Origin: a virus | Virus record (IMG/VR): IMGVR_UViG_3300025896_000052 | Location: 1-41,570 of that record | Length of the DNA: 41,570 nt | Direction: 5' to 3' (one strand) | Shown here: piece after piece, positions 3,147-40,255 of the stretch | Layout of the letters: each line of letters opens with the position of its first letter | How positions within the stretch are numbered: the stretch's first letter is position 1 | Position numbers and translations under genes: made by a program | The notes under the pieces: model-generated | Told to the model about the DNA's origin: nothing | What the model saw: only the letters and a program-made list of their open reading frames with translations | The model's database searches: none

Positions 3147-5492
3147 CTAGAATTCCTCGCCGTCAAGCGATAGGCCTTCAATGGCCGCAACGTTTCTGTT
3201 GTTTAGTTTTTTCTGTGGATGATAATTAAATTCTATTTTCTTATCCTTGCACCACGCAAGCAAGCGTTTTGTGAATTGATTTATCGCGACAGGCACTTCG
3301 CCGTCTTCGCGCACGTAGGTTTCATAGTGCTTGCGCAGGTCGCGCACAGAGACAATTCTAGCTTCCCCCTGCTTCACATGCGCGGTACACCAACGGGCGA
3401 CGTTGTCGTTTTCTTCTTTGTACTTATTGAGTTCGCTTGATGTCACTGCAGTTTCAGGGAAGTTGAACCCCCGCGCCCTTAAGCGATAGTAGCCATCAAG
3501 AACCATGTTCATAATTCCTGGGAGTTCCTCAGCAATGATTTTTTCTGCTAAGAACTTATCGGCCCCCGCGCCTTCAAATGTCGCATCAAACGGAACTATA
3601 AGGAATCGTCTATATAAACCCTTGTTAGGCGTTGCACCTTTGGGTATCTCGTTAACCAGCAGAATAAACTTCGCTGTATTTTTAAATTCAATGGCGTCTT
3701 TAAATTTGTAACTTCCTGAAACGAGCCCCCCAGCAACCATATCCTTAAGCGTTTCGAATTGACGTTTTTCCAAATAAATCTCAGATTCGTCCATGATGTT
3801 AAACAATTTATTGAACAAGCGAATATTAGAAAATTCTTGTCCGAGTGAATGGAAGGGTACTGTACTAAACGCCTTACCACGCGTTCCGCCGACAAGTGCC
3901 TGCAATATCTGCATGAGAGTTGATTTTCCATTGGCCCCCGTTCCCGTGCAAACGAGGAACTTGTGTGCTCTTGAGTCGTCTCCTGAGATTGCATAGCCCA
4001 TGTACTCCAATAAAATATTTTTTAATTCTTCTCTACCTACCGTGATATCGTCAAGGAACTTTTCAAAAAGCGGCGCCCTTGCAATGGGGTCGTAGCCGTA
4101 GTTTAGTGTCTGAGTAAAAAATAGTTCCGGGGAATGGTCGAGTAAGGTCCCGGATGTAAGATCAAGTACACCATTTTGGAAGTTGATCTTTCTTGCCCCT
4201 GATTCACGAACTGTATCGGCGTCGTAGGCCCGATTATACATTTCAACCTTTGCAGCGAACTCACTTCTTTGCGAAGCAACGGGCTTTGGTGACATAGTGT
4301 TTTCCGCAAACATTTTTGCGTATTCCAAGTCCACAAGCTCAAAGTGCGAATCCTTGTAAATGTAATGCAGGTCTTTAAGATTAATGAAAGCGTGTTTGTT
4401 TTCATATTCCTTAAGAAGCCCTTCGTAGTCGGGTTTTGTAGGCTTGCCATTTTTATCGTAGTACCAAAAGCCTGCATCCCGTGTGGCAATAAAATCTTTC
4501 CCTTTAAGGGAAATTGGAGACGTAACCTTCCCGTTGTGAGGGCATGTATTGCACTTTCCCCACAGAGCGTTAACATTCTTGCAGGTTCTAGGCCCTGCGT
4601 TTGTTTTTGCGTAGAGAATTTTTCTCTCGACTTCATTCGGGCGATATCCTTTATAGTCTTTAGAATATTCGTGAGCGAGTGCGCCATCGTCGTCTAGCCT
4701 TGACACGATTGTAAGCATCGCGTACCACTCAGGCTCAGTCACGGCGTTCTGGTTTTGCTTGGCCCATTTCAAAAATTCGCACGTTTGTATTTCGTGAACG
4801 TCGAGACTGAGCTTAGAGACTTGTTTGATGGGGAGTTCATCGGCTTCGCTAACATCCGGGAGCCCTGAACACTTCACCAAATTCCAATCTGGTGCGGTTT
4901 TAGGTAGGCCATTTATAAGAACCGCATTTCTATCGGGGCGTCCTTCCTTACGGTTTATGGTGCCAGGAAGTCTGTGAAGACGATTGGCTTCAAAAGCCGA
5001 TGGGTCGGGCGTCCCCGCTAGCTTTGCCTCAAGAAGGGCGTCTTTAATTTTCTGCAGAACGATGGAGTAATGCAGTTTATGCTTTTCAAAAAAAGATTTT
5101 TCAGTGATGGGCTTAGCAAGGGGAATGAGGAGTTGAACCCCGTACCCCGTGGCAACGAGACAGTATTCACTCGTGCCCAGCGCCTCATTGAAAGCTTTGA
5201 CATAGCCGGGGGCAAGTCTCCCCTCGGCGGTGTAAGTACAATGGTCAATGTCGAACGAAATCACATCCTGGGACTGCCAAGTGCGACCCGGTCCCTCGTG
5301 ATTTTGCTTAGCGTGGCCCAGCGTATAATACAAATTGACCTTATCGTCGATATTGACGAGAAAGTCCTTGAGATTCGCGAATAATTCGTAGATAGAACCG
5401 ACATAAAGTCTTGGTTCTAGGCCTTTTTCGAATTTTTTAGCGGTTCCCGTTTCTCTCTCAGCAACCATGCTGATGCGGCGTACTTCAATCAT
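3147..5492 (-). CDS. bifunctional AEP-type primase / SF3 (D5-like) helicase
   Basis: This 781-residue replication enzyme should make primers and unwind the origin or fork. The N-terminal part shows archaeo-eukaryotic primase hallmarks: FDID (about residues 78-83) as metal ligands and RLHRLPGTIN (about 170-180). A cysteine cluster (CKNVNALWGKCNTCPHNG) follows at about 305-325. The C-terminal third is a superfamily 3 helicase of the phage/plasmid P4-D5 type, with Walker A GTGANGKST (about 515), Walker B LFNIMDE, and a sensor segment LLVNEIP followed by RRFLIVPF. The start is ATG 5492 behind AAGGGA; Met9 is an alternative. It is the first gene of a leftward two-gene operon inside the rightward half, with an operator-like inverted repeat just upstream. 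Confidence 0.93.
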   Translation of the reverse strand: MIEVRRISMVAERETGTAKKFEKGLEPRLYVGSIYELFANLKDFLVNIDDKVNLYYTLGHAKQNHEGPGRTWQSQDVISFDIDHCTYTAEGRLAPGYVKAFNEALGTSEYCLVATGYGVQLLIPLAKPITEKSFFEKHKLHYSIVLQKIKDALLEAKLAGTPDPSAFEANRLHRLPGTINRKEGRPDRNAVLINGLPKTAPDWNLVKCSGLPDVSEADELPIKQVSKLSLDVHEIQTCEFLKWAKQNQNAVTEPEWYAMLTIVSRLDDDGALAHEYSKDYKGYRPNEVERKILYAKTNAGPRTCKNVNALWGKCNTCPHNGKVTSPISLKGKDFIATRDAGFWYYDKNGKPTKPDYEGLLKEYENKHAFINLKDLHYIYKDSHFELVDLEYAKMFAENTMSPKPVASQRSEFAAKVEMYNRAYDADTVRESGARKINFQNGVLDLTSGTLLDHSPELFFTQTLNYGYDPIARAPLFEKFLDDITVGREELKNILLEYMGYAISGDDSRAHKFLVCTGTGANGKSTLMQILQALVGGTRGKAFSTVPFHSLGQEFSNIRLFNKLFNIMDESEIYLEKRQFETLKDMVAGGLVSGSYKFKDAIEFKNTAKFILLVNEIPKGATPNKGLYRRFLIVPFDATFEGAGADKFLAEKIIAEELPGIMNMVLDGYYRLRARGFNFPETAVTSSELNKYKEENDNVARWCTAHVKQGEARIVSVRDLRKHYETYVREDGEVPVAINQFTKRLLAWCKDKKIEFNYHPQKKLNNRNVAAIEGLSLDGEEF

Positions 5493-8984: not shown

Positions 8985-10406
8985 ATGCAACTTTGGAAAC
9001 ATCAGCAGGTAGCGGTTGAAAAATCGCTTTCAAAGGATTTCTTAGCGCTCTTTTTTGACCCCGGTACGGGGAAAACGGGCACCACCATTAGAATCCTGCT
9101 AAAAAAATTCGTGCAGCACGCAGGGCAATTTCCTGTGCTCATCTTCTGCCCCCCGGTCGTGATTCCCAACTGGGCCGCCGAGTGGAAGAAATTCGCAGAC
9201 ATTACAAATGTTGTGCAGTTGACAGGGAGCCAGAAAAAACGAGTCGAGCTTTTCAAGAAAGCAAAACCTAATTCTATTTTTGTAACAAACTATGAAGCCC
9301 TGCTTATGAAAGACCTAATGTCTCTTATGATGCAGTATTTTTCCCAAAAACAAATTTCAGCATTGGTGCTAGATGAATCACATAAAGTTAAAGACATCAA
9401 ATCAAAAAGAACAAAATACGCTATCAATATATCAGATAATTTCACTTATCGTTATATCCTTACTGGTACTCCGCTGCTCCGAAACTACCTCGACTTATTC
9501 ACGCAGTTCCGGGTTCTATCGAAAAACATCTTCGGCACGAACTACTTCGTGTTCAGGTCCCGTTTCTTCCGCGATAAAAACGCCGGGATGCCCTCACACA
9601 AGCACTTCCCCGACTTCGTCCTACTACCGGGTGCCGAGAATGAGATTAAGCGTATCGTCGACGAGCATACAAGCTTTGCAAAAAAATCAGACTGCCTCGA
9701 TCTTCCGCCGCTCATCCGTAAAAAAATCTCGATCCCACTAGGGCCTGAGCAGAAACGCCTCTATGAAGCGATGAAGAAAGACTTCGTCGCTACGGTACTG
9801 GACCAACACGGTAAAGTTCGTGCCTCTGTAGCAGAGCTTGTGATTACAAAAGCTCTTCGCTTGCAGCAGATTGTTTCGGGCCACCTGCGAGTGGCAAATG
9901 AAGATGGCACAACGAGCGCTTTACAAATCAAGGATAATCCGAGAAAATTAGCTCTAAGGGAAATTTTAGAAGACCTTGCCCCCCATCACAAAGTCATTGT
10001 GTGGGCCGTGTTTAAGGATAACTACGTCGACATTCGAGAAGTGTGCGACGCTATAGGAGTCGAGTATGTTGAAATCACAGGTGAGACGACTGACAAACAG
10101 CGGAGTGTTGATCGCTTTAATAATGACGACAGTGTTCGTGTGTGTATTGGCAATCCTGCTGCGGGAGGTATCGGAATCAATCTCGTTTCTGCGGGATATT
10201 CTGTCTACTATTCAAGAACTTTTTCGTTAGAGCATGACATACAAAGTGAAGCAAGAAATTATCGTGGAGGCTCAGAGATTCACGATAAGGTTACACGCAT
10301 CGATCTTGTTGCCGAGGGAACAATCGACGAACTTGTGCTCGAATCACTAGCAGAAAAACAAGAAATGTCGGAAACTATTTTACGACAAGCGTTAGAAAAA
10401 ATTTAA
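8985..10406 (+). CDS. SNF2-family (SF2) DNA helicase/translocase
   Basis: A 473-residue ATP-dependent DNA translocase. Helicase motifs appear in order: the Q-like LWKHQQVAVE at the start, Walker A DPGTGKT (residues 25-31), Ia-type CPPVVIPNWAAEW, the DEAH-box variant DESH with KVK after it, motif III LTGTPLLRN, and motif VI in QSEARNYRGG. The two RecA-like halves are complete and the length is minimal for a phage SNF2 protein. It probably remodels replication or recombination intermediates. The start ATG lies 10 bases after the preceding gene, whose end supplies a weak ribosome binding site. Confidence 0.92.
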   Translation: MQLWKHQQVAVEKSLSKDFLALFFDPGTGKTGTTIRILLKKFVQHAGQFPVLIFCPPVVIPNWAAEWKKFADITNVVQLTGSQKKRVELFKKAKPNSIFVTNYEALLMKDLMSLMMQYFSQKQISALVLDESHKVKDIKSKRTKYAINISDNFTYRYILTGTPLLRNYLDLFTQFRVLSKNIFGTNYFVFRSRFFRDKNAGMPSHKHFPDFVLLPGAENEIKRIVDEHTSFAKKSDCLDLPPLIRKKISIPLGPEQKRLYEAMKKDFVATVLDQHGKVRASVAELVITKALRLQQIVSGHLRVANEDGTTSALQIKDNPRKLALREILEDLAPHHKVIVWAVFKDNYVDIREVCDAIGVEYVEITGETTDKQRSVDRFNNDDSVRVCIGNPAAGGIGINLVSAGYSVYYSRTFSLEHDIQSEARNYRGGSEIHDKVTRIDLVAEGTIDELVLESLAEKQEMSETILRQALEKI

Positions 10407-26896: not shown

Positions 26897-27412
26897 TTAT
26901 AAATCTACAATTATGGTTGGATTAACAAAAATTGAACCAGGAGCGTTACAAAATCCAACTGTCACAGAGAAACCCGTGACCGGTGCAGTTTGCGTGAGCG
27001 CCCCAGAAATTCCTAAAAAAACAGGCTGATTAATTACGTAACTATTGAAAGCTGCGTCTTTAATTTCGCCGAACGTAACTACTTCCACATCGACACCTGC
27101 ACCACCTGCAGCGGTCTTTGATACACCAAGCACTTGCGCATCTTGGTAGGTACCGTTGTTGGTCGCAGTGGTTATCTCATCGTCGTCGAGTTGTTGCACT
27201 GCTCGCAATGCTGACAACGCACCAATGCTTTTCTTTGTCATTGTGACTACAGTTTGCGTATTGAAAGCCACATTGCTTGATGATTCTACATTGATCGAAT
27301 CAATTTGCTTCTGAAAATCAACTAACCACTGGCGCAACTTCAGAAAGTTTTCTTGTGTATACCGATCAGGTATTTCTTTAATCAAAAAATCAAACCGCTT
27401 CTGCTTCATCAT
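26897..27412 (-). CDS. tail-region structural protein, 171 aa
   Basis: It starts at ATG 27412 overlapping the previous stop (ATGA); Met2 is an alternative. The first 35 residues are helical and basic (KRFDFLIKEIPDRYTQEN). The rest is beta-rich with turns (VLGVSKTAAGGAGVDVEVVT, GFSVTVGFCNAPGSIFVNP) resembling fibre-adaptor or hub-type virion proteins. It lies next to the nozzle-like protein, which suggests a place at the tail tip or as fibre anchor. Confidence 0.65.
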   Translation of the reverse strand: MMKQKRFDFLIKEIPDRYTQENFLKLRQWLVDFQKQIDSINVESSSNVAFNTQTVVTMTKKSIGALSALRAVQQLDDDEITTATNNGTYQDAQVLGVSKTAAGGAGVDVEVVTFGEIKDAAFNSYVINQPVFLGISGALTQTAPVTGFSVTVGFCNAPGSIFVNPTIIVDL

Positions 27413-29658
27413 GGCGTGCTACCTTGAGAACTCGACGTGTACGGCGTGTGCGACTTAGAGATAAACGCCCAGTGAATCACATAACCTGTAAGCTCAAGCA
27501 CTTGGCCTTTAGGCTTGCCACGAATAACATATTTCAAAGTTGCGTTCGCAGAGGGTCCTAGATTTTCGCCATCTTTATATGTGAAAGTCGTTGCGGTTGA
27601 ATCAGTAATCAAAAATTCTCTCGTGTAAGAATCATTTTCAAACGCGATGTAGTAATCTTCAAGGCCCGATGGCACCTTTGTAAGTGTCACAGTCTTAGCT
27701 GCAACATCAACGGTACCAGAGCCCAGCACGTCACTTGTAACAATCTGCGTGTGTGCGTTCGTAAGTTTAATTTGTTTGTAGTTGCACCGGAGGCCCCCGG
27801 CGGGAAATCTACGCCATTCTTCAACAACTCCGGGGAAATTCCAAACTGCGTTGGCATCGCCCCAAAGCGGAAATTCGTCACCCCAAGTTATGCTTGAAAC
27901 ATAACGAATTGGCTTCAAATCACCCAATACTCTATCTTTATCGTTTGACGACGAAATTGCAAGCGAAAGATTGGTAGAATTGGTCGCGGAAATCAAGATT
28001 CGGGGTACAAACTTACGATAAAATTTTGACCCAAAATCAACAAAACACGACTCGTAATCGTAAATAATCGTTTGATTGAGCCAATTTGATGGATCTTTCG
28101 TCTCATCAACCTTAACGTCGGCAAGTAATCCTGGTCTGTGGCGAAGAATGTAGCCACGGCTATCACCGCGATAAAGATTTTCACCTATCTGTAGTACGGC
28201 AGTGGGTCGGAAAGAAAGACCGCCGCTCATGGAAGTAAAACACGCATGACCGGGGTCACTCATCGCCTGCTGATAAAATTTAAGATCCAAAACGAAGAAA
28301 GCATCGGCTTCAGTTGTTTCAGTGAGCGAGACTGTCCAAATAACTCGGTTTTCAATCTTATCAAAAGTTCCTTTAATTCGTTTTTGGAAAGCCTCATTTT
28401 GCGTTAAAGCCTTGTACGTTGTCGGCAAGTGCTCGGAAATATTTCTTACGTTTAACCCATCTGACCAATAAAATCCGCCAGTACCGGCCCAAAAGATCCC
28501 AATAGGTGTACGAACGATAGAAAGTTGGCTAACTATACCCGCGTTGTCATCAATACGACGAAGAGCCATACCACCTGAACCGTCAACGTCATAAAAGTTG
28601 TCAATACGATAAACATAAGATGTACAGAAAACAAGTGGTCTATCATAAATGGAAGAAAGTCCGCGAATTGGTTGTTCTGTATTTCCGTAGTTTGCAGGGG
28701 GAACAGCGTCCACAATGCCGGGGGAAGACTGTACAACTTTTGTTTCATCGATGTTGCCGTCAGTTTCTTTTATGTTCGCATAGTAACCAACGTCGTTCAC
28801 TGCGTGAACGTATTTACATTTTGGCACTGTACCATAGCTTAGTACACCACCAGTTGTATAAAGTTGCTCGTTTAAAGCAAGATCGCCGTCTTCAGTTTCG
28901 TCGTTATAGCTCGAAGTTCCGAACGGAACACTTGTAATTTTATAGAAGACATCTCCGCCATCTTGCGTGCGATAAATTTCAAGTACAAAGTTAGCAGTGT
29001 CAAAATTTTCAGCGCCAGAAATTGTAGTAGGAAGCGTGATCGCGGCACCATTACCTGTCGTAATTACGCCGCCTGTTACTGCCTGCGGGTAAAGATAGGT
29101 CGGTCCCAGCGAAGTGTACTCAAGTTCACGATTCGTATAATCATAGCGTAAAACAAACGTATAAAGATAAGTCGCGCCACTGCCAGTCGGATTTGTGATC
29201 GCCACACCCGCAGGGATTTCTGGCATTCCGGCATTTCTAACTTGATAATTGCCAGAGCCGTCGACAAAAAGTTTTTGTACGCTCGTATATTCTTCAGTCG
29301 AAAGCAACAAATGTCTGCGCCATTCGGTGTCGGTGATAACAGGGTCATCCAATTCCAGGCCGAAAAAATCACCTGCAGTGGGGCCTAAAATTTCCGTTCG
29401 CGTAGTGTCGGTGTAAAAGTAGCCATGTCCATTTTGAAAGGCGAGCAAAACCGATTCAAGCTGCGTGAGCTTGATAATTTTGTCTGCGGTTGGAAAACGG
29501 TCTCCAAAGGCTTCAGAACCGTAGCGTGTCCGCATTTTTTTATTTTTGGTAATGATGAGATTGTCAATCGTCTTCGCTTCGCGAGGATCGCCATCAAGCC
29601 AAAAATCTGTAAGGCCAAAGGAAAAATCTTCGACCGCAAGTGGTTGTGTTTCGATCAT
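27409..29658 (-). CDS. tail nozzle / tail stabilisation-like protein, 749 aa
   Basis: The largest beta-rich virion protein. It opens ETQPLAVEDFSFGLTDFWLD followed by an NLIITKNKKMRTRYGSE segment, a beginning typical of podovirus nozzle proteins (T7 gp12-like and P22 gp10-like groups). The length is close to T7 gp12. Repeating strand blocks with WSDGLNVRNIS, YRGDSRGYI and RRFPAGGLRCNY fit a beta-propeller. It would form the hexameric end of the short tail below the adaptor. The start is ATG 29658, overlapping the previous stop (ATGA). Confidence 0.75.
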   Translation of the reverse strand: MIETQPLAVEDFSFGLTDFWLDGDPREAKTIDNLIITKNKKMRTRYGSEAFGDRFPTADKIIKLTQLESVLLAFQNGHGYFYTDTTRTEILGPTAGDFFGLELDDPVITDTEWRRHLLLSTEEYTSVQKLFVDGSGNYQVRNAGMPEIPAGVAITNPTGSGATYLYTFVLRYDYTNRELEYTSLGPTYLYPQAVTGGVITTGNGAAITLPTTISGAENFDTANFVLEIYRTQDGGDVFYKITSVPFGTSSYNDETEDGDLALNEQLYTTGGVLSYGTVPKCKYVHAVNDVGYYANIKETDGNIDETKVVQSSPGIVDAVPPANYGNTEQPIRGLSSIYDRPLVFCTSYVYRIDNFYDVDGSGGMALRRIDDNAGIVSQLSIVRTPIGIFWAGTGGFYWSDGLNVRNISEHLPTTYKALTQNEAFQKRIKGTFDKIENRVIWTVSLTETTEADAFFVLDLKFYQQAMSDPGHACFTSMSGGLSFRPTAVLQIGENLYRGDSRGYILRHRPGLLADVKVDETKDPSNWLNQTIIYDYESCFVDFGSKFYRKFVPRILISATNSTNLSLAISSSNDKDRVLGDLKPIRYVSSITWGDEFPLWGDANAVWNFPGVVEEWRRFPAGGLRCNYKQIKLTNAHTQIVTSDVLGSGTVDVAAKTVTLTKVPSGLEDYYIAFENDSYTREFLITDSTATTFTYKDGENLGPSANATLKYVIRGKPKGQVLELTGYVIHWAFISKSHTPYTSSSQGSTP

Positions 29659-30032
29659 ACGCCGAAAACTACCTCTACGTTTTGTACCGTGTTGGTGTAA
29701 ATATAAATGCTTGTCGCCGATGCTATGGCGGTTTTCATGTGAATTGTTTCTTTAGTTGTAGGGTCCCGAACAGTAGCCACGAAAGTATTTGCGGCAGCGG
29801 CATTTGGTGTGTTTACCGTCGCACGATAATACCCATCTCCCTGAGACGCAAAAGATCCAGAAGAAACGGAAACAACACTTGCAACAAGTGAGCTTGAATT
29901 GATCTTTGCGCTATCGGTACCGTTGTGAGAATGGTCATTTAGGCGCTGAATATTAAATTCCATTGCCGGAAACCAAACGTCGCCAAAATCACCTGTCTGC
30001 GGTTTTTTAAAACCATAGCTTAAAATTACCAT
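29655..30032 (-). CDS. small tail/fibre-associated virion protein, 125 aa
   Basis: The ATG follows AAAGGATAAAA. The N-terminus (YGFKKPQTGDFGDVWFPAME) leads to NDHSHNGTDSAKINSSSL, an HSHNGTDS motif common in phage tail-fibre attachment proteins. The C-terminus is a beta sandwich. It is coupled to the nozzle-like gene by ATGA, so the products probably assemble together. Confidence 0.75.
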   Translation of the reverse strand: MVILSYGFKKPQTGDFGDVWFPAMEFNIQRLNDHSHNGTDSAKINSSSLVASVVSVSSGSFASQGDGYYRATVNTPNAAAANTFVATVRDPTTKETIHMKTAIASATSIYIYTNTVQNVEVVFGV

Positions 30033-30034
30033 TT

Positions 30035-31207
30035 TTATCCTTTGAGACTATCGTCCCATGCAAACAGCAAACATCCGCCGATTAAATCCTTGAGCTTTGC
30101 AGCGGTGGGTTCACTCATCGCGAAACAACCCCAAGAATCGCCAATTGGTTGCCCCTCAGTATCATTCACATAAGCCGAAGAGTGCCACACAATTGCGCGT
30201 GCTCGGACATGGTCATTGAGACCCTTTTGAAGGCCATCAATCCGTCTGCAGGTTTTAAACTTCGTAGAAGCATAAGCTTCCGCGATAACCATGGCACCCA
30301 ATGAGCTTTCGTGTGAACCGTCGTCGTTTGAAAATTTCTCTGGAAGCCCGTCTTTATTTTTATCTGAGTTGGCGCCGTGTGAAACTTTATAGTCTGTCGA
30401 CTTCAAAGTCTCCATGTCAATCATGTGGAAGCGCTTTAATTTTTCGTTTTTATTAAAATCAACCAGTAAAATATATTTTTTGTTTTTAACCGCAGGGTTA
30501 TCCTTCCATGTTAACGCAGCTTTGAGTGCAAGCGAAGGAATTTGCGGGTTAATCGCCAAAATTTTGGCATCGAGCGTATCTTCTTTAGGAGTAGGTGTAG
30601 TAATGGCGGGTTCTGATTTACTTGGAGTGAATAACCAATCCAAGAACTTCTTGAACATCGTCAAAAGCCAATTCTGCTGTTCTACAGGCGTAACGGGCGC
30701 TGGTGCCGGAGTAGGAGCTACCACACCTACCGGCGTAGAAAATAGCTTCTGCTCGGCTAAGCGTCTGCGTGTAAGACCTGGCAAAACTTTACCTTCAGCC
30801 TTATTCCATTTGGGAAATTCTGCAAGCGCACCGGCAAAGTCACCTGCGTTGAGTTTTTTAAGCAGGGTAGAGTCACCAAGACCTTCAGCGATTGTGTCGC
30901 TATCGATGTCAGAGCCTACATTGTAAGCAAAAGACACAAGTGCGCCGAATTGGTTATCGTTAAGTGTAACTTTGAGGAGCTTTTCAACATCTGTAATAAA
31001 GTTTTCAAGATCTTTACGCAGGTATTCTTCAGCTTGCGCCTGCGTGATTTTATCACCCTTTTTTACAGGAGTGCCGTTCGGATATCTTATTGTACCGTAG
31101 CCAATAGTCCAAATTGGATTATTGGGGCGGGGGTCAGGATATGCTTCAAGACGAAGACCTTCGAACTCTTTTATAAGATCAATTGTTGCCTGGTTTAATT
31201 TACGCAT
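30035..31207 (-). CDS. bifunctional endolysin: GH24 muramidase plus L,D-transpeptidase-like domain
   Basis: A 390-residue peptidoglycan enzyme. The N-terminal T4-lysozyme-type domain (about 1-155) has the triad Glu16, Asp25 and Thr34 in EFEGLRLEAYPD and WTIGYGT, and cuts the glycan strand. A Pro-rich linker (about 158-200, including TPAPAPVTP) follows. The C-terminal domain (about 215-390) shows VSHGANS, HSSAYV and SWGCF, the His and Cys motif of the YkuD_2-type L,D-transpeptidase family, which acts on the third residue of stem peptides. No signal peptide is seen, so holin-dependent release is expected. The start ATG overlaps the preceding gene by 8 bases. Confidence 0.9.
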   Translation of the reverse strand: MRKLNQATIDLIKEFEGLRLEAYPDPRPNNPIWTIGYGTIRYPNGTPVKKGDKITQAQAEEYLRKDLENFITDVEKLLKVTLNDNQFGALVSFAYNVGSDIDSDTIAEGLGDSTLLKKLNAGDFAGALAEFPKWNKAEGKVLPGLTRRRLAEQKLFSTPVGVVAPTPAPAPVTPVEQQNWLLTMFKKFLDWLFTPSKSEPAITTPTPKEDTLDAKILAINPQIPSLALKAALTWKDNPAVKNKKYILLVDFNKNEKLKRFHMIDMETLKSTDYKVSHGANSDKNKDGLPEKFSNDDGSHESSLGAMVIAEAYASTKFKTCRRIDGLQKGLNDHVRARAIVWHSSAYVNDTEGQPIGDSWGCFAMSEPTAAKLKDLIGGCLLFAWDDSLKG

Positions 31208-31670
31208 CTTTGAGTCCTTTCAAAAAATTATGTACAACGACCGGGTCAACCCAATCGAAGCCTGCTACTTCCATTCGCAGTGATGTGAGATATGTGATGC
31301 AGTACATGGCCGCTTCGGAGCATACTTGTTTCGAAATACCGTCTGCTAAATAGCCGCGCAAAACTGGAATAAGAAATCCGGCAAGCTGTCTGTACGCATA
31401 CGGAGTTCCAATTCTGCCCTCGAGAAATCCGATACCTTCGGCATCAGATACGCGCTGATATTTAGAGATATCGATTATGTCGGCGAAAATATGTTCAGCA
31501 AGGAACGAATCTTTGTCGGTTTTTCTAAAACCTTCGTCAACGCAATCGTAAATTACTTCGTCGTTAATCAAAAGACCAACGTGAGAAAATGGTGCCCTCA
31601 TTACGCGCATAATTATGCGTGAAAATAAATCAGGATTTTTTTCTGCGGCGAAAAAAACTTCAATCTTCAC
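31200..31670 (-). CDS. permuted NlpC/P60 (YiiX-like) papain-fold enzyme
   Basis: I take GTG 31670 as start: it overlaps the stop of the preceding lipoprotein gene (GTGA) and gives a 156-residue product. The frame is open to 31757, but that part belongs to the neighbour. The order of catalytic residues is circularly permuted: His first, in APFSHVGLLIN, and Cys later, in SKQVCSEAAMYC, with EGRIGTPYAYRQLAG between them. Such proteins hydrolyse amide bonds in peptidoglycan or lipid/peptide substrates. Its place in the lysis cassette suggests a second wall-degrading activity. Confidence 0.8.
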   Translation of the reverse strand: MKIEVFFAAEKNPDLFSRIIMRVMRAPFSHVGLLINDEVIYDCVDEGFRKTDKDSFLAEHIFADIIDISKYQRVSDAEGIGFLEGRIGTPYAYRQLAGFLIPVLRGYLADGISKQVCSEAAMYCITYLTSLRMEVAGFDWVDPVVVHNFLKGLKDA

Positions 31671-31996
31671 TTCTTTTTCGTTCCTTCTTGCGTCAAAATT
31701 GTCAAAAGCTCTTTGACCCAAGCGACAGAATCGACAAATTGCTGCCCAGGCATACAAATCTGTTTATCAAAACCTCGGTCGCCATCTTTACCGGTGCCTG
31801 CGTCTGTAAATTTAATCTCATATTCAGTGCCGTAACCATTCACACAGTAGGCTGTTTGCTCTTTCACGTTCGTAATGCAACGAGAAACCTTCGGCATAGG
31901 CCGAAGAGTCGCGCAGTTACTTAAACTTACCAAGATCGTTGGCAAAAGAATCAATTTTGCGCAAGATAGCCTTATATTCTGAAATACTTTGTGCAT
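31667..31996 (-). CDS. lipoprotein, possible outer-membrane spanin component, 109 aa
   Basis: The ATG follows AAGGGGA. Residues 1-28 form a lipoprotein signal (basic MHKVFQNIRLSCAK, hydrophobic LILLPTILVSLSNC) with lipobox LSNC, Cys28. The mature part has three cysteines (Cys40, Cys51, Cys81) and a C-terminal helix. It overlaps the preceding gene by 80 bases in another frame, a nested arrangement reminiscent of Rz/Rz1. It lacks the Pro-richness usual for Rz1, so the spanin role is tentative. Confidence 0.65.
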   Translation of the reverse strand: MHKVFQNIRLSCAKLILLPTILVSLSNCATLRPMPKVSRCITNVKEQTAYCVNGYGTEYEIKFTDAGTGKDGDRGFDKQICMPGQQFVDSVAWVKELLTILTQEGTKKK

Positions 31997-32147
31997 TATT
32001 GAGTTCCCCTTGCAAATCTCCGGCTTGCTTTCCGATTTCGGTTAACGCCGCTTTCGTATGAAAATACTGCGTTAGTTTCTCATCAATCTTGTCGATGAGA
32101 ACTGAGGCAACTTTTTCTACAATGGCGGCAATTATACCTTCAAACAT
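31917..32147 (-). CDS. small amphipathic/coiled-coil lysis-cassette protein, 76 aa
   Basis: It starts at TAATG with the preceding gene. The N-terminal 25 residues are amphipathic (MFEGIIAAIVEKVASVLIDK), too charged for a clean span. A helical, coiled region follows (TKAALTEIGKQAGDLQGEL). It could be a membrane-associated partner of the lipoprotein, for example an inner spanin-like or antiholin protein, but there is no direct evidence. Confidence 0.6.
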   Translation of the reverse strand: MFEGIIAAIVEKVASVLIDKIDEKLTQYFHTKAALTEIGKQAGDLQGELNNAQSISEYKAILRKIDSFANDLGKFK

Positions 32148-32368
32148 TATTTCAAGAGCGCTGCTTTCAAAGCGTCAATGATATAATCGTCGATTTTGCC
32201 GGGGATCAAAGTTTTCAATTGGTCAACTAAGACATCGCTTGAAAGATCGGCAGAAAGAGTAGCGCCGCCGTATTTACCTTTGTAAACGAACTTAAGGGAA
32301 ACTACACCCGCGACCAAAGTTGCAACTACAGAGAGTTCGCTTGAAAGTTGTTTGTTAAAAAGTTCCAT
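32147..32368 (-). CDS. small hydrophobic lysis-cassette protein, 73 aa
   Basis: I place the start at ATG 32368, right behind GGAGGA; the open frame upstream lies in the holin-like gene. The product has one hydrophobic segment (SVVATLVAGVVSLKFVY) near the N-terminus, then a polar helical part (LVDQLKTLIPGKIDDYIIDA). It sits between the holin-like gene and the amphipathic protein, so a lysis-timing role is plausible. Confidence 0.65.
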   Translation of the reverse strand: MELFNKQLSSELSVVATLVAGVVSLKFVYKGKYGGATLSADLSSDVLVDQLKTLIPGKIDDYIIDALKAALLK

Positions 32369-32376
32369 GATTCCTC

Positions 32377-32577
32377 CTAGGAATATAATGCAGATACTAC
32401 CTGTACTGCTATTGTGATTAATCCGGTAACTACGAGCGAACCGCCCATCAGTTGCCACTTAAATTGTAAAATCGCATCTAATTTATCGTTTTGTTCTTTA
32501 TTATAACGGTCGATTTTGTGATCCAAATCTCGAACTCGTTTATCTAGCATCGCTATTCGTTGGTCGTATCCTGACAT
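32377..32577 (-). CDS. XhlA-like holin, 66 aa
   Basis: I choose ATG 32577, two bases after the fibre gene stop, with GGTGG upstream; ATG 32589 would overlap that gene. The product has an N-terminal heptad-type coiled coil (DQRIAMLDKRVRDLDHKIDR) and one C-terminal membrane span (GGSLVVTGLITIAVQVVSAL). This is the layout of hemolysin XhlA-type phage holins. It would open the inner membrane for the endolysin encoded downstream. Confidence 0.75.
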   Translation of the reverse strand: MSGYDQRIAMLDKRVRDLDHKIDRYNKEQNDKLDAILQFKWQLMGGSLVVTGLITIAVQVVSALYS

Positions 32578-32579
32578 AG

Positions 32580-33716
32580 CTACCACCAATCAGTAATCGG
32601 AATTTGGCCCGTTAAATGAATTCGCTCATCTCCGCCAATCGTAACTGGGTTTGTTCTACTGACCGGCGACAAAGGACCTATAAAAACCGGGTTAGTTCCT
32701 GCAAAAGTATCATCAACATAAATTAATAATGTCGTAGAAGTACTATAGACAGCGGAAAGTTTAGCATATCCTGCGCCGCCAAGCCCCGGGTCGTAAAAGT
32801 GCCCCTGCCCAAGCATCGGTAAAGTTTCTCCGCCTGTATGCAGTACTGCGGTCGTATCAATGGTCAAATTAGTGGGAACACTTACGTTTAAACTCGTGTT
32901 TGTTGGTACGCCCGTATACTGTATGTTATTTATAAAAAGAAAATTTGCGCCAACACGCATCCAATAACCAGTATAAGTTGTATTAGCCGTGTGCGACCCA
33001 GTAGGAGTATAAGAACTCCATCCTTGAAAATAAGTATGTTCAATCACATGCCAATTACTGCCATCGCAAAGCAGTGTTACAGTGTCTCCCGTAGAAACGA
33101 GTTTTCTTGTTGTAAAACCGTCGATTGTTTCCGAACTATTTCCATCAATCGTAACGGTAAGGAAAGTTGTATCGGTTTTTTTTATTCTAACAGTCTTTCC
33201 GCTATTCGAAGCCGCCGGATAAAGTGTAATCGTAAAAGCACCGCCCGAAGCATCACATAAAATAACATTATCACTAGGGTCTACGGTGTAGTTAGCAGTT
33301 TTACTGGTAATGGATAGGGTTCCGCTCGCAGGTGTTACCCAAGAAAGCGCGTCAACGCCATTAGTGGTAAGAACCTGCCCGTTAGCGCCAACACCATTCG
33401 GTAATTCTAATGTTTTATCAGCAGACAGAGCTGCCGGGGCTTTAAAGCCAAGATAGTTTGAATTATCTGAGTCAAAAAATTTCAATGTTCCCGCTGCGCG
33501 CATTTGCGCTTCAGTCGTAAACTTCGGGCTCGCGAGCGTTTTATTGGAAACTGTCTGCACAATGTCTTCTGTCACAAGCTCTTTCATAGCCGTGCCATTA
33601 GATACTTTTGGAATATTCTGGTCAGTACGGTAAGTAACCATACCCGCCGCTAAACTTCCAGTATCAGAAGTCGTATTTTCCAATTGCGCTTTTTCAAGCT
33701 GGGAGTAAACTTTCAT
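32580..33716 (-). CDS. tail fibre / head-fibre type protein, 378 aa
   Basis: It opens MKVYSQLEKAQLENTTSDTG, a start typical of phage head-fibre or tail-fibre proteins that begin with a K-x-LEKAQ segment. It continues with NKTLASPKFT, LELPNGVGANGQVLTTNG and a C-terminal beta sandwich with aromatic loops (YFQGWSSYTPTGSHTANTTY). These repeat types are common in receptor-binding fibres. It is located right after the capsid terminator, ahead of the lysis cassette, and its stop is two bases before the holin ATG. Confidence 0.8.
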   Translation of the reverse strand: MKVYSQLEKAQLENTTSDTGSLAAGMVTYRTDQNIPKVSNGTAMKELVTEDIVQTVSNKTLASPKFTTEAQMRAAGTLKFFDSDNSNYLGFKAPAALSADKTLELPNGVGANGQVLTTNGVDALSWVTPASGTLSITSKTANYTVDPSDNVILCDASGGAFTITLYPAASNSGKTVRIKKTDTTFLTVTIDGNSSETIDGFTTRKLVSTGDTVTLLCDGSNWHVIEHTYFQGWSSYTPTGSHTANTTYTGYWMRVGANFLFINNIQYTGVPTNTSLNVSVPTNLTIDTTAVLHTGGETLPMLGQGHFYDPGLGGAGYAKLSAVYSTSTTLLIYVDDTFAGTNPVFIGPLSPVSRTNPVTIGGDERIHLTGQIPITDWW

Positions 33717-33975: not shown

Positions 33976-35223
33976 TTAGTAGCTGATACCGTAGATGATA
34001 CCGTTGTTGGTAGGCTTGGTGACTTCAAGTTCACCGAACAAGCTGACGTCAACGATGTATTGATAGCCAGAAGTATTACGAACTTCGAAGTATTCATTGC
34101 CGTCTGGAGATTTTCTCTTTTTGAACATTCCGTTTGAGCGGAAAGTCATAGAGTTCATATCCAAAATCGCGATAGTTGAATCTTCCCATTCTTGAATACC
34201 AACAAGCTTCAATGTGCCCTTGACAGATGTGATAGTGATTTCATCCCAACCATAAATGGAAGCAGATTTACCACCAGCACCAATTTGCCAGTTAGCAGCG
34301 CCGTTTGATTTCGCTTCAACAAGCTTCATGCAAGTAGCAAGGTGCTTGTAGCTCATCAAGAAAGTGTTCGCGTTACCACGAGCTTTCTGACGAACGGCTG
34401 TGTACGCATCAAACAATTTATCAAGCAAGTTGGAAGCAGAAATGCTCGCACCGTTGATGTTGATTGCTTGGAGGTATGGGGCAGACAATTTTGACACGTT
34501 ATGCAGAGTGGAAGAACCACCGTTTGCAGCGGACAAAAGAGCCGACTTGATCGAAGTGAAAGATGTGCCTTGGGCGCCATCAGTGTAGAACTTTGCGTTC
34601 TGACCAGTGGTGTAAGCAGACACGTCGGCAGCGGCGCCGCCACGAGTTGCAGACACAGTAACTTCGTTCGTGTTCAAGTTGATAGCTGTGATGTAAACGT
34701 CTGTAGGAGACGAGTTATCATCGTCGAGTTGAGCTTTTTGGCCCAATTCAAAGCGGTCAATACGATCAACAACGAGAACACCAGTGGCAGCGTTTGTGCC
34801 ATCAGTAACAGTTGCGAAAGAAGGACCAGTACCCAATTGAACAGAAACAACCATTTTCATGTAAGACATGAAATCTTCGATAGTATCAGGGAGAACTTTC
34901 AAGAAAGTGTCTTCAGTGATACGACCAGAGTGGTCTTGCAAATCGCGATGGTTGAAGATCATGGAACCCCATGCTTCTTTATAGTCGTCGATATAGCCAC
35001 GAACGAACGAGCTTTCTGAAATGTCGTTAGCAGCGGTAAGGCCGCCCATTTTCACAGAAGTCGCGCCAGAGGCTTTGAAAGGAACGATGATTTTACCACC
35101 TTTCCACGACTCATCGATATTGACGTTGGAAAGAATGTAATCCCGCTTAATCATCTCTTCTCTCAAGAGACGATTCGGCAGGTATTCATTTAGCATGTTA
35201 CTAAACGAGCGAGTAGTTGACAT
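33976..35223 (-). CDS. major capsid protein, 415 aa
   Basis: The ATG follows AGAGGAT. The product is a full-length coat subunit: N-terminal helix (FSNMLNEYLPNRLLREEMIK), a stretch SWKGGKIIVPFKASGATSVKM as in P22-type and N4-related coats, and a long alpha/beta body with a backbone helix (NLLDKLFDAYTAVRQKARGN) and MSYKHLATCMKLVEAK. It ends with EVRNTSGYQYIVDVSLFGELE and a short tail. It follows the scaffold gene and precedes the strong terminator. Its codons look regular and optimised, fitting high expression. Confidence 0.9.
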   Translation of the reverse strand: MSTTRSFSNMLNEYLPNRLLREEMIKRDYILSNVNIDESWKGGKIIVPFKASGATSVKMGGLTAANDISESSFVRGYIDDYKEAWGSMIFNHRDLQDHSGRITEDTFLKVLPDTIEDFMSYMKMVVSVQLGTGPSFATVTDGTNAATGVLVVDRIDRFELGQKAQLDDDNSSPTDVYITAINLNTNEVTVSATRGGAAADVSAYTTGQNAKFYTDGAQGTSFTSIKSALLSAANGGSSTLHNVSKLSAPYLQAININGASISASNLLDKLFDAYTAVRQKARGNANTFLMSYKHLATCMKLVEAKSNGAANWQIGAGGKSASIYGWDEITITSVKGTLKLVGIQEWEDSTIAILDMNSMTFRSNGMFKKRKSPDGNEYFEVRNTSGYQYIVDVSLFGELEVTKPTNNGIIYGISY

Positions 35224-36230: not shown

Positions 36231-38366
36231 CTATTGTTGAGGCGGCATCATTCCTTGTTGTGGGGGCGGCGCTTGCGGCGGGTTCATATCGGCCACTGCA
36301 CCGGGGTTCATTTGCTCGAGGGCATCAAGGCTTGAACCTTGCGCTTCAAGCTTCGTGATAAGATCCATGAGCGCTTCATACGGAACTCGTACTTGACGTG
36401 TGCCGGAATCTTTAGAAGGGTCAGCAACGTGCATACTGCAGGTGATAAGTGCTCCGCCCGTAGGGATGAAGCCGTCTTTCGCTTGCTGTAGGGCCGCTTC
36501 TTTACGCTTAATCTCATCTTCATGCTGCATCAGAACTTCCATATAAATTTGTTGGATAGGCTGAGCAAGCATACTGAAATCGGGTTGCTTCATCCGATTC
36601 GTAAAAGCATCTACATAAGTTTGATTGTCTGCATACGGAGAAATGTCTGGTGTTTGCCCACGCTCGATGGCGAGCATGTCATTTTCAACGTTATCGTAGT
36701 CAGATGTCATGTACTTGAACAAAGATTTATTGTTCAGGTATGGCATTTCCTTCATAATAAGGCCGATGTGCTTGGGTTGCAACTGCGAACCGACATACTG
36801 AAGGATTTGGTTAAGAGCTATTTGTTTTCCGAGTCGAGTGTCGATAGCTTCTGACTGCGCTTCTGCTTTAATCGTGAAACTGTTCGGCAAAGTGTTTCTA
36901 AACTCCGCGATGTTCACATATTCCGATTTTCCAACGATTTTGATGAATGTATCGTCGTCGTAATATTTTTTCGCCATCTCTAAAGCCAAAAGGCAGAGTT
37001 CTTTCTCCCATTCTTCGATTTTATCAACGTAATCTTTGAAAGCTTTCTGCTGAGATGCAGATTGGAATAGCAAAGCATACGGATCTTGAACGCCAACAGG
37101 TTTATCCGCGATCATTTCTTCGAGCATACATGCAGAGTACATTTCCTGAATCTGCGAATCGATATATGGTAGAAACTGGGAGCCATCGCGCCCAGGGAGT
37201 GTAATTGGTGCCACACCTTGATACTTAATCCCCCTGACACCGGGAAGTAATGCGCCACTTTCGAGCTTTGTGCCGCCTTGATAGAGAATTTTATCATCAC
37301 CAACGGTAATCTGGTGCATCGCCATCTGCGAAGATGCGCGATTGATTTCCGCTTGATAAGGTTTTGCCACTTCTAAGATAGAAGACGCACGCGGATTGTC
37401 GGCGTGCATGTCGAAACCCTGCCAAACGAGAGGAAAAAGACCAAAAGGAATTTCCCCCGACTCTAAAATGCCGCCTTTTACGCAAATGTAGAAATATCCG
37501 TTCGGATATTGTTTGCAGGGGCGGTAAAAGTGGTATCTGACGAGAATTTCGTCCTTAGCTTCTTCATAATTCTTTTTATTTGAATCGAAAACGTAGAATT
37601 GTTCGTCACCCGAGGCTTTTATGTAAGAAAGTTTTGCTGGATCTTGGCCATAGGTGCCTTCAAGATCTTTAACAGCGACCATTTCTCTAATAATCAGGTA
37701 AGGCGAGCCCTTCATGGTCTTTGCGCCGGGGGCTCTTAGCAAATTATATGCAGGAATATTTTTAAAAACGAAACCGCCCGACATAACAGGACGAGTTGGG
37801 TCTGGAATCGGTGAGCCCGATTCATCAAACTGCGGCATACCTTGTTCGTCGACTAGCTGTTCGAAACCTTTTGTGGGGCCGGAGTTGGGATCAAAGTATA
37901 GAAACGTACAAACTTCGCCGATAGTGACGTAGTTCGCAACGGAATCGCGCTTGTGCGCGTGAAGATTGTAGCGTTCACGCATATCTTTCCACACAGCTTC
38001 GTTAATCTCGGCAGATTTTTTATCCTGCATCTCGAGTTCGTTGTGTGGTGTGATTGTGACCCCAGGCATTTTTTCTAAGATCGAGTTTTTATACGTCTTA
38101 GAAATCTTTTGCATGTGGTTTTTTGTGAGCTTTAACTTCTGCGACTCAGGAACATTCTGCGAATTTCTAATTTGATTGAACAGCCGTTCATCAGAACCCT
38201 TTCGGTTCCAATGATTTCCAGCTTCAAGCAAAATGTTCGCACGCATTTTAGCAAACTGCTCTTTGTCTGCGTCGTTTGCCTTACGATAACATTCGTTGAG
38301 TTGCTCTATTGTATGCGGGGTCTTAGCTTTTGGCTGTTCAGCTTGCGCTTGTTGCTCTTCGATCAT
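36231..38366 (-). CDS. portal protein, 711 aa
   Basis: It forms the dodecameric DNA channel at the head vertex. Length is near the P22 portal (about 725). Recognisable features are the N-terminal helical part with FAKMRANILLEAGNHW, a core with YVTIGEVCTFLYFDPNSGP and YNLLRAPGAKTMKGSPYLI, the wing/stem region (PLVWQGFDMHADNPRASSIL, EINRASSQMAMHQITVG), and a Gln/Pro-rich C-terminal tail (PPQAPPPQQGMMPPQQ). It starts at ATG 38366, overlapping the preceding gene by 29 bases. Confidence 0.92.
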   Translation of the reverse strand: MIEEQQAQAEQPKAKTPHTIEQLNECYRKANDADKEQFAKMRANILLEAGNHWNRKGSDERLFNQIRNSQNVPESQKLKLTKNHMQKISKTYKNSILEKMPGVTITPHNELEMQDKKSAEINEAVWKDMRERYNLHAHKRDSVANYVTIGEVCTFLYFDPNSGPTKGFEQLVDEQGMPQFDESGSPIPDPTRPVMSGGFVFKNIPAYNLLRAPGAKTMKGSPYLIIREMVAVKDLEGTYGQDPAKLSYIKASGDEQFYVFDSNKKNYEEAKDEILVRYHFYRPCKQYPNGYFYICVKGGILESGEIPFGLFPLVWQGFDMHADNPRASSILEVAKPYQAEINRASSQMAMHQITVGDDKILYQGGTKLESGALLPGVRGIKYQGVAPITLPGRDGSQFLPYIDSQIQEMYSACMLEEMIADKPVGVQDPYALLFQSASQQKAFKDYVDKIEEWEKELCLLALEMAKKYYDDDTFIKIVGKSEYVNIAEFRNTLPNSFTIKAEAQSEAIDTRLGKQIALNQILQYVGSQLQPKHIGLIMKEMPYLNNKSLFKYMTSDYDNVENDMLAIERGQTPDISPYADNQTYVDAFTNRMKQPDFSMLAQPIQQIYMEVLMQHEDEIKRKEAALQQAKDGFIPTGGALITCSMHVADPSKDSGTRQVRVPYEALMDLITKLEAQGSSLDALEQMNPGAVADMNPPQAPPPQQGMMPPQQ

Positions 38367-38757
38367 TAGATGAATTTCCCTGTTCGCCTATGGCGAAATC
38401 CATACGAGACTGCTCATACGCGATAGCGTCGGTGAGTAGAAGATTGTCGTTGACGGCTTCCTCTAACGCAGTTTCTCTGGAAGTAGTAATGTCTGGTGAT
38501 GTATTAGGAGTCGTCGGACTGGTGTCCGCACCCTCAACCTGACTTGGGTTAGAGGCAACCGCAGGGCCTTGCGCTTGGTACTTTAAATGAAAATCGCCAT
38601 AGGAAATCTCTAAAGATCCCTGGCATTTTTCCAGAATAGCAATTATTTCATTCGCTGTAAAGTTGCCTTTACGCTTATTCGCACATTTTGTTGAATTCTT
38701 CGATATCGGCGTAGAACTCGGCCCATTCGTCTGAGGGGGCGTCGGGGTTTTTTCCAT
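38338..38757 (-). CDS. linker protein between terminase and portal, 139 aa
   Basis: I place the start at ATG 38757 (MEKTPTPPQ), behind GGAGAG; the frame is open further upstream, but that lies inside the large terminase gene, which this gene overlaps by 83 bases. The middle has a folded segment (NEIIAILEKCQGSLEISYGDFHLKY). The N- and C-termini are Thr/Pro/Ser-rich and disordered. Small genes with this folded segment occur between terminase and portal in podoviruses. Function unknown. Confidence 0.7.
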   Translation of the reverse strand: MEKTPTPPQTNGPSSTPISKNSTKCANKRKGNFTANEIIAILEKCQGSLEISYGDFHLKYQAQGPAVASNPSQVEGADTSPTTPNTSPDITTSRETALEEAVNDNLLLTDAIAYEQSRMDFAIGEQGNSSNDRRATSAS

Positions 38758-40255
38758 AAATACCACGTCTCTCCATGATTTGTTGTTCAAGCAATTCTTT
38801 TTCCGTAAGAATTTTTTTAACTGGCGGTGTTTTATCAGCAACGATTCTGCTCGGCAGTTTCGATGTGATGTGCTCGTAGTCCCAGGGGATCGAACACACG
38901 GTGTATCTGAGTGCGTCGGCAAGATCATCGCCTTCTTCTTGCCCCACCATGAGCATCGATAGCTCATCCATAAGCTTTAGCTGCTCGATATTCTCCGGCA
39001 CGTCACCGTAGTCTACAACTTTCAAAGCGCCCGATAAAAGAAGGGTGTTTAAAAGTTCGTCTCCGTAATCTTTCTGTTTGTTGGCTTTGTTGACTGCGAG
39101 CCCTGTTCGGGAGGCAATCGTTTCCAAATCTTTTGCAGAATGGTCGTAGACAACGTCGGTGAGGATAATGTTACGTCTGAGTTCGACAAATTTGTTAACA
39201 ACGTCGCCTGCAGTTGTTTGTATCCCATCTCCCCGCCAGCATCTAAACACAACACCCGATCTGTAGTCGGGGGCAACGGCGATGAACACAATCGCAGAGG
39301 GGTGCCCCGCTTCTCCGCCGGAACCATAATCCATACCGCCAAAGTAAAAGTGAAAACGCAAATCAATAGGGCTTGTAATATTACGGTTTTCGTCGAAGCC
39401 GTAGTAGAGACGTCCGCCCTCGGCGACGTGTTTTCCGTAAACTCTTCGTTGTCTTTCGGCTTCATTCTGACACCGTCCTTCAATTTCCTTGACTCTCTCT
39501 CGGGTGAACACCGTCGATGGCGACCCGTCTTCATATAATAGACAATCGTACATAGAAACTTCGCGAGTGAAAGCATCTTTCAAAGCTTTCTTCTGCATCA
39601 CGCGCTTCCAGAACATTTGGTTCAACGTGGGTGTGTAAAACATGTTGAACACACCGTAAGTGGAAATCATACGCATCATAAGTTCATCGTAGAACTTTAC
39701 GGGCATTTCTTCATCGCAGAAGATTTCGTGCGGGGAAGATGCCTGCACGTTCGCCACTTCCTTCGAGTAGTACATGAAATACGTGGTGATTCCACTGTTC
39801 CAGTTGATGCAGTAGGGGACCTTGCGGTCTCTATCGTTTGTGATATTCCAACCGTACTGCATGGAATTTTTCATCTCGCCCCGAGGCATGACGTCAATCC
39901 ACTTTGTGTTCCACTCACGCTCAAGCGTTTTACTATCAGGATAAAAGTACCACTGCATCCGATAGTTCTGCCACGTCTTCGGAAACAAACGCTTTCTGCG
40001 TTCAATGTCCGTAGCATTTGCAACTAAACGCTTCTGCCCCGTTGTCGACTTACCAATCTGGTTTGCAGCGCACACGACGTTGACAGGGTTCTTGGAATCA
40101 AAAAATTCCCGTTGCCATGGATAAAATTTATGTTGGTAAAGATGAGGCAACTCTTTGCGCAACTTCTCTTCAGCGGCAAGGAGTTCAAGCTTTCTCTTCT
40201 CAAGAAGTTGGGCCTGTCTCAGCTTTAATTGGTCTAGCCGGTTGATGTTCGACAT
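38675..40255 (-). CDS. terminase large subunit, 526 aa
   Basis: The ATP-driven packaging motor and nuclease. The ATPase has a Walker A variant AANQIGKS (residues 63-70), Walker B-type EIFCDEE (about 175-181), and a coupling segment FYTPTLNQMFW. The C-terminal RNase H-fold nuclease has MDYGSGGEAGHPSAI, VVYDHSAKDLE and DDLADALRYTVCS, which supply the acidic metal ligands. It cuts concatemers and fills heads via the portal. It starts inside the end of the small terminase gene and overlaps the next gene at its 3' end. Confidence 0.95.
   Translation of the reverse strand: MSNINRLDQLKLRQAQLLEKRKLELLAAEEKLRKELPHLYQHKFYPWQREFFDSKNPVNVVCAANQIGKSTTGQKRLVANATDIERRKRLFPKTWQNYRMQWYFYPDSKTLEREWNTKWIDVMPRGEMKNSMQYGWNITNDRDRKVPYCINWNSGITTYFMYYSKEVANVQASSPHEIFCDEEMPVKFYDELMMRMISTYGVFNMFYTPTLNQMFWKRVMQKKALKDAFTREVSMYDCLLYEDGSPSTVFTRERVKEIEGRCQNEAERQRRVYGKHVAEGGRLYYGFDENRNITSPIDLRFHFYFGGMDYGSGGEAGHPSAIVFIAVAPDYRSGVVFRCWRGDGIQTTAGDVVNKFVELRRNIILTDVVYDHSAKDLETIASRTGLAVNKANKQKDYGDELLNTLLLSGALKVVDYGDVPENIEQLKLMDELSMLMVGQEEGDDLADALRYTVCSIPWDYEHITSKLPSRIVADKTPPVKKILTEKELLEQQIMERRGIYGKNPDAPSDEWAEFYADIEEFNKMCE

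Follow-up and report, generated by a model that had tools for sequence, protein, structure and literature searches.

We identified, in the genome of a tailed phage, a gene whose product fuses a GH24 muramidase domain to a YkuD_2 domain of modelled L,D-transpeptidase fold, and we consider it fairly probable that this protein is a bicatalytic endolysin, the GH24 domain of which would cut the glycan and the YkuD_2 domain the stem peptide. The window, that is, the whole stretch of DNA analysed, is a virus record of 41,570 bases, and the features discussed are collected in Table 1. The lysin ORF is complete from its ATG at 31207 to its stop at 30035, has an AAAGGA ribosome-binding site just 5' of the ATG, and overlaps with its start the 3' end of the upstream gene. 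A second contig, IMGVR_UViG_3300006805_000312, encodes an identical lysin protein and shows 99.97% identity across 13.2 kb; the identical lysin gene on two contigs argues against a chimeric assembly, which we ruled out on this ground. The GC contents of the GH24 and YkuD_2 parts are 0.438 and 0.439, respectively, and give no mark of a recent import of the YkuD_2 domain. The Pro-rich linker contains an aromatic amphipathic stretch, NWLLTMFKKFLDWLF (residues 179-193; 30629-30673, minus strand), which could touch membranes.

Table 1. Features of the lysin gene and its upstream neighbours, with window coordinates.
Feature	Position	Strand	Basis
Endolysin gene, GH24 muramidase + YkuD_2, 390 aa	30035..31207	-	ORF, Pfam
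GH24 (Phage_lysozyme) domain, residues 13-152	30752..31171	-	Pfam PF00959, PDB lysozymes
Pro-rich linker, residues 157-207	30587..30739	-	Sequence
YkuD_2 (L,D-transpeptidase fold) domain, residues 222-384	30056..30544	-	Pfam PF13645, family search, fold model, structural matches
Codon of His342, predicted catalytic His (HSSAYV)	30182..30184	-	Invariant column; weak profile comparison with LdtA
Codon of Asp357 at Cys-4, family departure	30137..30139	-	Arg in 110/111
Codon of Cys361, predicted nucleophile (GDSWGCFAM)	30125..30127	-	Invariant alignment column
Upstream overlapping gene, 185 aa	31200..31757	-	ORF; no family above cut-off
109 aa protein, hydrophobic N-terminal stretch and LSNC	31667..31996	-	Sequence, hydropathy
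103 aa ORF, one predicted membrane helix, holin-like candidate	32147..32458	-	Hydropathy
70 aa ORF, charged helix and C-terminal membrane helix, holin/XhlA-like candidate	32377..32589	-	Hydropathy 2.01; weak PHROG hemolysin match

Both halves of the protein are matched by Pfam profiles far above the respective cut-offs. The GH24 half covers the whole PF00959 profile (positions 1-125 of 125; E 8.4e-44, 149.3 bits, cut-off 22.3 bits) and is matched by PDB lysozymes with E values down to 8e-42; the predicted catalytic triad of Glu16, Asp25, and Thr34 lies in the region aligned with solved lysozymes. Its closest counterparts in architecture differ in one respect: the GH24 endolysins of Gifsy-2 and Acinetobacter phages are 51-55% identical to the N-terminal 156 residues but are without a YkuD_2 domain. 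The C-terminal half matches PF13645 (YkuD_2) over profile positions 8-169 of 169 (E 1.7e-32, 112.6 bits, gathering cut-off 27 bits), and contains the motifs VSHGANS from residue 275 (His277), HSSAYV from residue 342 (His342), and GDSWGCFAM at residues 356-364 (Cys361). Although the domain is only 30-37% identical to the 11 cellular YkuD_2 domains with which it was aligned, 20 columns are invariant across the 12 sequences, including those of His342 and Cys361, and Cys361, His342, and His277 are all intact in such columns. The sequence-only reading had named the GH24-type triad as well as the YkuD_2-type motifs with a retained catalytic Cys; the residues of both halves proved to be as it stated, and the HMM search that it proposed as a check of the latter indeed returned an L,D-transpeptidase profile.

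The L,D-transpeptidase-like fold anticipated for the C-terminal half was likewise recovered by modelling. While prediction of the whole protein from one sequence gave an unusable model (pLDDT 35.5), AlphaFold2 with 31 aligned sequences modelled the C-terminal half with pLDDT 81.6 and pTM 0.81, and in this model the half has an L,D-transpeptidase fold. The model matches B. subtilis YkuD with a Z score of 11.4 (VIA; rmsd 2.8 over 113 residues to 4a1i), the LD-carboxypeptidases Pgp2, Bd1075, and Csd6 with 11.3, 10.8, and 10.7, respectively, and DpaA with 9.1; Ldtfm and LdtMt2 were matched as well. Foldseek gave 29 matches at E <= 0.001, and the listed ones were all L,D-transpeptidases or the LD-carboxypeptidase Pgp2. 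Z differences within 1 were treated as ties, so that carboxypeptidases and transpeptidases are not told apart by these matches. A weak profile alignment, which bears only indirectly on the proximity of His and Cys that the sequence-only reading proposed as a check, places His342 and Cys361 on the catalytic columns of E. coli LdtA, with His342 on the His of its IHG motif, and a search of PDB sequences with the YkuD_2 profile found no real relative.

For the position two residues after the Cys (Cys+2), published structural work gives Arg in the majority of LD-transpeptidases, whereas Csd6, Pgp2, and YafK-like hydrolases have Ala (PMC8938487; PMC10653827). Among the E. coli enzymes, LdtA, B, C, and E have Arg and the amidase DpaA has Ala. 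The phage domain has Ala363 in place of the Arg usual in cross-linking L,D-transpeptidases, in agreement with the Ala or non-Arg residue that characterizes LD-carboxypeptidases of the Csd6/Pgp2 kind (PMC8938487); across 111 distinct YkuD_2 domains, the phage copy included, 106 have Ala and none has Arg. The sequence thus favours hydrolysis over cross-linking, and from this one position and the lysis-gene setting we infer that the domain more probably hydrolyses the stem peptide, at residue 3. Ala363 and the hydrolases already published with this fold likewise favour the idea that the fold could run in reverse and show carboxypeptidase or endopeptidase activity; domains of this fold act as weapons or hydrolases in Tlde1a (PMC9638812) and DpaA (PMC8263019). 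In the proposed mechanism, the holin-like membrane proteins would let the endolysin reach the wall at the end of infection, and the GH24 domain would cut the glycan strands, presumably between MurNAc and GlcNAc. Cys361 of the YkuD_2 domain, activated by His342, would attack the stem peptide and form an acyl-enzyme at the L-centre of its third residue (meso-DAP or an equivalent). Resolved mainly by water, this intermediate would make the domain an L,D-carboxypeptidase or endopeptidase, not a cross-linking enzyme.

Some of the evidence points the other way. Ala at Cys+2 is common to nearly all of YkuD_2, a family whose chemistry was demonstrated in none of the papers found, and the modelled fold matches to carboxypeptidases are tied with those to transpeptidases. 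The one mutant studied, of Legionella lpg1697, behaved as would be expected if a cross-linking enzyme were missing, and its muropeptides were unchanged (PMC10117105). This phenotype fits a true transpeptidase, as do the name and fold of the family and the common dual activity of L,D-transpeptidase enzymes, such as the exchange by Tlde1a or the combined endopeptidase and transpeptidase activities of LDTBcn; the phage domain would then exchange D-amino acids or form cross-links and modify the wall rather than cut it, for example, by blocking the host's own repair or by holding the enzyme on the sacculus. With Ala rather than Arg at Cys+2, and with wall strengthening making little sense for a lysis enzyme, we regard this as unlikely.

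The phage domain also departs from its family. At Cys-4, 110 of the 111 distinct YkuD_2 domains have Arg, giving a GRSxGC motif that we counted here as a conserved feature and that lies outside the published family definition, and the phage copy alone has Asp (Asp357), which may alter its specificity or activity. In a tree, the branch leading to the phage domain lies on the side where sequences of Rhizobium and sphingomonads are placed (95/85), but it is long (2.53), which makes the exact origin of the domain unsure. Given the lost near-universal Arg and the long branch, the activity could be altered or lost. In endolysins the catalytic domain is often accompanied by one for binding, and a copy that is divergent and lacks the conserved Arg could serve chiefly to bind the wall and position the muramidase, its own catalysis being weak or absent. 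A pure binding function would have no need of Cys361, His342, and His277, all kept in invariant columns, and we find this reading rather improbable.

A related possibility is that the domain is a DpaA-like amidase, detaching outer-membrane proteins covalently bound to peptidoglycan. DpaA (YafK/LdtF), a hydrolase that acts on the Lpp-peptidoglycan bond, shares with the phage domain the SxGC[FY]AM[ST] motif with Ala at Cys+2 and a fold match (Z 9.1, as above), and the phage segment DSWGCFAMSEPTAAKLKDLI-GGCLLF aligns with VSIGCYAMTNQGIDEIFQFV-TGALVF of DpaA (26 aligned columns, 31% of them identical; E 0.005 by hhalign in this one pairwise comparison). Such enzymes are found in Alphaproteobacteria with peptidoglycan-attached outer-membrane proteins (PMC8263019). 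On the other hand, Ala at Cys+2 is common to LD-carboxypeptidases too, the Z score is lower than for these enzymes, the remaining domain does not align with DpaA, and the catalytic His and Cys are spaced by 19 residues in the phage protein vs. 8 in DpaA. We give this the lowest probability of the readings considered; if it held, one phage enzyme would both break the wall and free the outer membrane, taking over part of the usual spanin job.

The setting of the gene is that of a lysis cassette, and the GH24-YkuD_2 protein is very probably the endolysin of the phage, since its gene follows holin-like genes and occupies the slot of M15-like lysins in relatives; this bears out the endolysin assignment of the sequence-only reading. 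The holin-like ORFs upstream were recognized by hydropathy alone, the 70-residue one having a weak PHROG hemolysin match (E 0.027). Between them and the lysin, the 109-residue protein is a possible lipoprotein or outer-membrane spanin, and the 185-residue protein, possibly a permuted papain-like hydrolase as suggested by FSHVGLL...CSEA, may be a second lysis-related enzyme. The tailed phage is further represented by a terminase (38675-40255), a portal (36231-38366, minus strand), a putative capsid gene (33976-35223, minus strand), and a family A DNA polymerase. A VWA-domain protein (PF13519; 7760-8389, plus strand) is encoded near upstream of an SNF2-type helicase (8985-10406) in the nonstructural region.

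The putative capsid and the portal had no match among 50,697 phage records at E 1e-3, but, the sister contig aside, nine viral contigs encode a capsid that is 52-72% identical; these capsid/portal relatives (L062-L070) represent a phage group of which the same records contain no described member. Two of them, L063 and L065, have the gene order of lysin slot, homologue of 29655-30032, and homologue of 27409-29658, with the slot encoding a protein of 138-143 aa that carries an M15-like signature, SKHN...AVD...PHFEL. The lysis enzyme at this place thus differs between relatives. That the M15 assignments are below the Pfam cut-off, with a Pfam match in the L063 protein only (E 0.003), counts against the proposed reading. 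None of the nine capsid relatives showed YkuD_2, several being fragments without the lysis region, and we rejected the domain as a conserved feature of the group. A capsid search aimed at the host, which covered 385 genomes from the class to which Novosphingobium (G032) belongs, gave no match and was uninformative.

Domains of YkuD type in phage lysins are already known. The PhaLP collection lists ten phage lytic proteins with such domains (PF03734, cd16913, PF10908), PF13645 being absent (PMC8310338), and a survey of gut phages described one lysin that joins GH25 to thirteen choline-binding repeats and a YkuD domain (PMC13284279); BFVD contains a few phage proteins of YkuD-type fold, one named Tlde1 domain. 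The novelty that the sequence-only reading implied for an L,D-transpeptidase-type domain in a phage lysin was therefore overstated. These proteins resemble ours in placing an L,D-transpeptidase-fold domain in a phage lytic protein, the gut lysin also having a muramidase, but by their descriptions they are set apart by domains of the PF03734/cd16913 or PF10908 types and, in the gut lysin, by GH25 instead of GH24. Apart from this phage and its sister contig, neither a phage with a YkuD_2 domain of its own nor a pairing of this subfamily with GH24 was found in the collections and open-access papers searched, and the literature searched reported no GH24-YkuD_2 lysin.

The nearest comparisons outside phages lie in the YkuD_2 family itself (Legionella Lpg1697; sphingomonad and Pseudomonas proteins named "murein L,D-transpeptidase catalytic domain family protein"), which the phage domain joins by its whole-domain profile match, the invariant FSN, HxxxY, and SxGC columns, and Ala at Cys+2. 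The cellular members read are without GH24 and mostly have frames of 200-300 aa; the phage copy differs from them by its Asp357 and low identity. Tlde1a shares the fold and is an antibacterial, wall-damaging enzyme that can kill bacteria via carboxypeptidase and exchange activity (PMC9638812), but it is a T6SS-delivered effector of a different subfamily, without a muramidase and with an HGC motif and a second His (H129). Csd6, Pgp2, and Bd1075 resemble the phage domain in fold (Z 10.7-11.3), the first two also in Ala at Cys+2, where Bd1075 has Val; they are cell-shape enzymes with other accessory domains, and the profile shows no sequence relation to the phage domain. The presence of YkuD_2 in a phage lysis enzyme suggests that such a domain is able to hydrolyse the wall. 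An active one would give lysins a second, L,D-specific blade, of interest where the wall abounds in L,D-cross-links, since D,D-endopeptidases leave these uncut, and Asp357 and Ala363 offer testable handles on hydrolysis vs. transfer.

The YkuD_2 domain is rare among the viral sequences covered. A tblastn search of the 50,697 phages with the domain gave one match, a standalone gene flanking a Pf prophage: the record OQ658363.1 ("Pseudomonas phage sp."; L048) includes flanking bacterial genes, among them a 16S pseudouridine synthase and the YkuD_2 gene (4162-4899), which probably belongs to the host. In three different scans of 2.9 million viral contigs, which rely on short conserved patterns and can miss divergent copies, the domain came up only in the sister contig and in one encoding the same Pseudomonas protein; a motif scan of the viral contigs with profile checking added nothing further with YkuD_2, and no PHROGs family covers the domain. 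Within these limits, YkuD_2 is ruled out as a common phage domain. YkuD_2 is, by contrast, a widespread bacterial family, whose usual target is the bacterium's own wall; it was above the cut-off in 64 of 398 Pseudomonadota genomes (about 16%). None of the cellular YkuD_2 frames read, which include the strongly matching long frames (L163, L167-L171; up to 637 aa) but not the weakly matching ones of 332-391 aa, contained GH24, and within this scope a cellular GH24-YkuD_2 fusion was rejected. In several sphingomonads, the YkuD_2 gene adjoins a second L,D-transpeptidase gene, a pair that recurs on plasmids (L072, L073, and L075).
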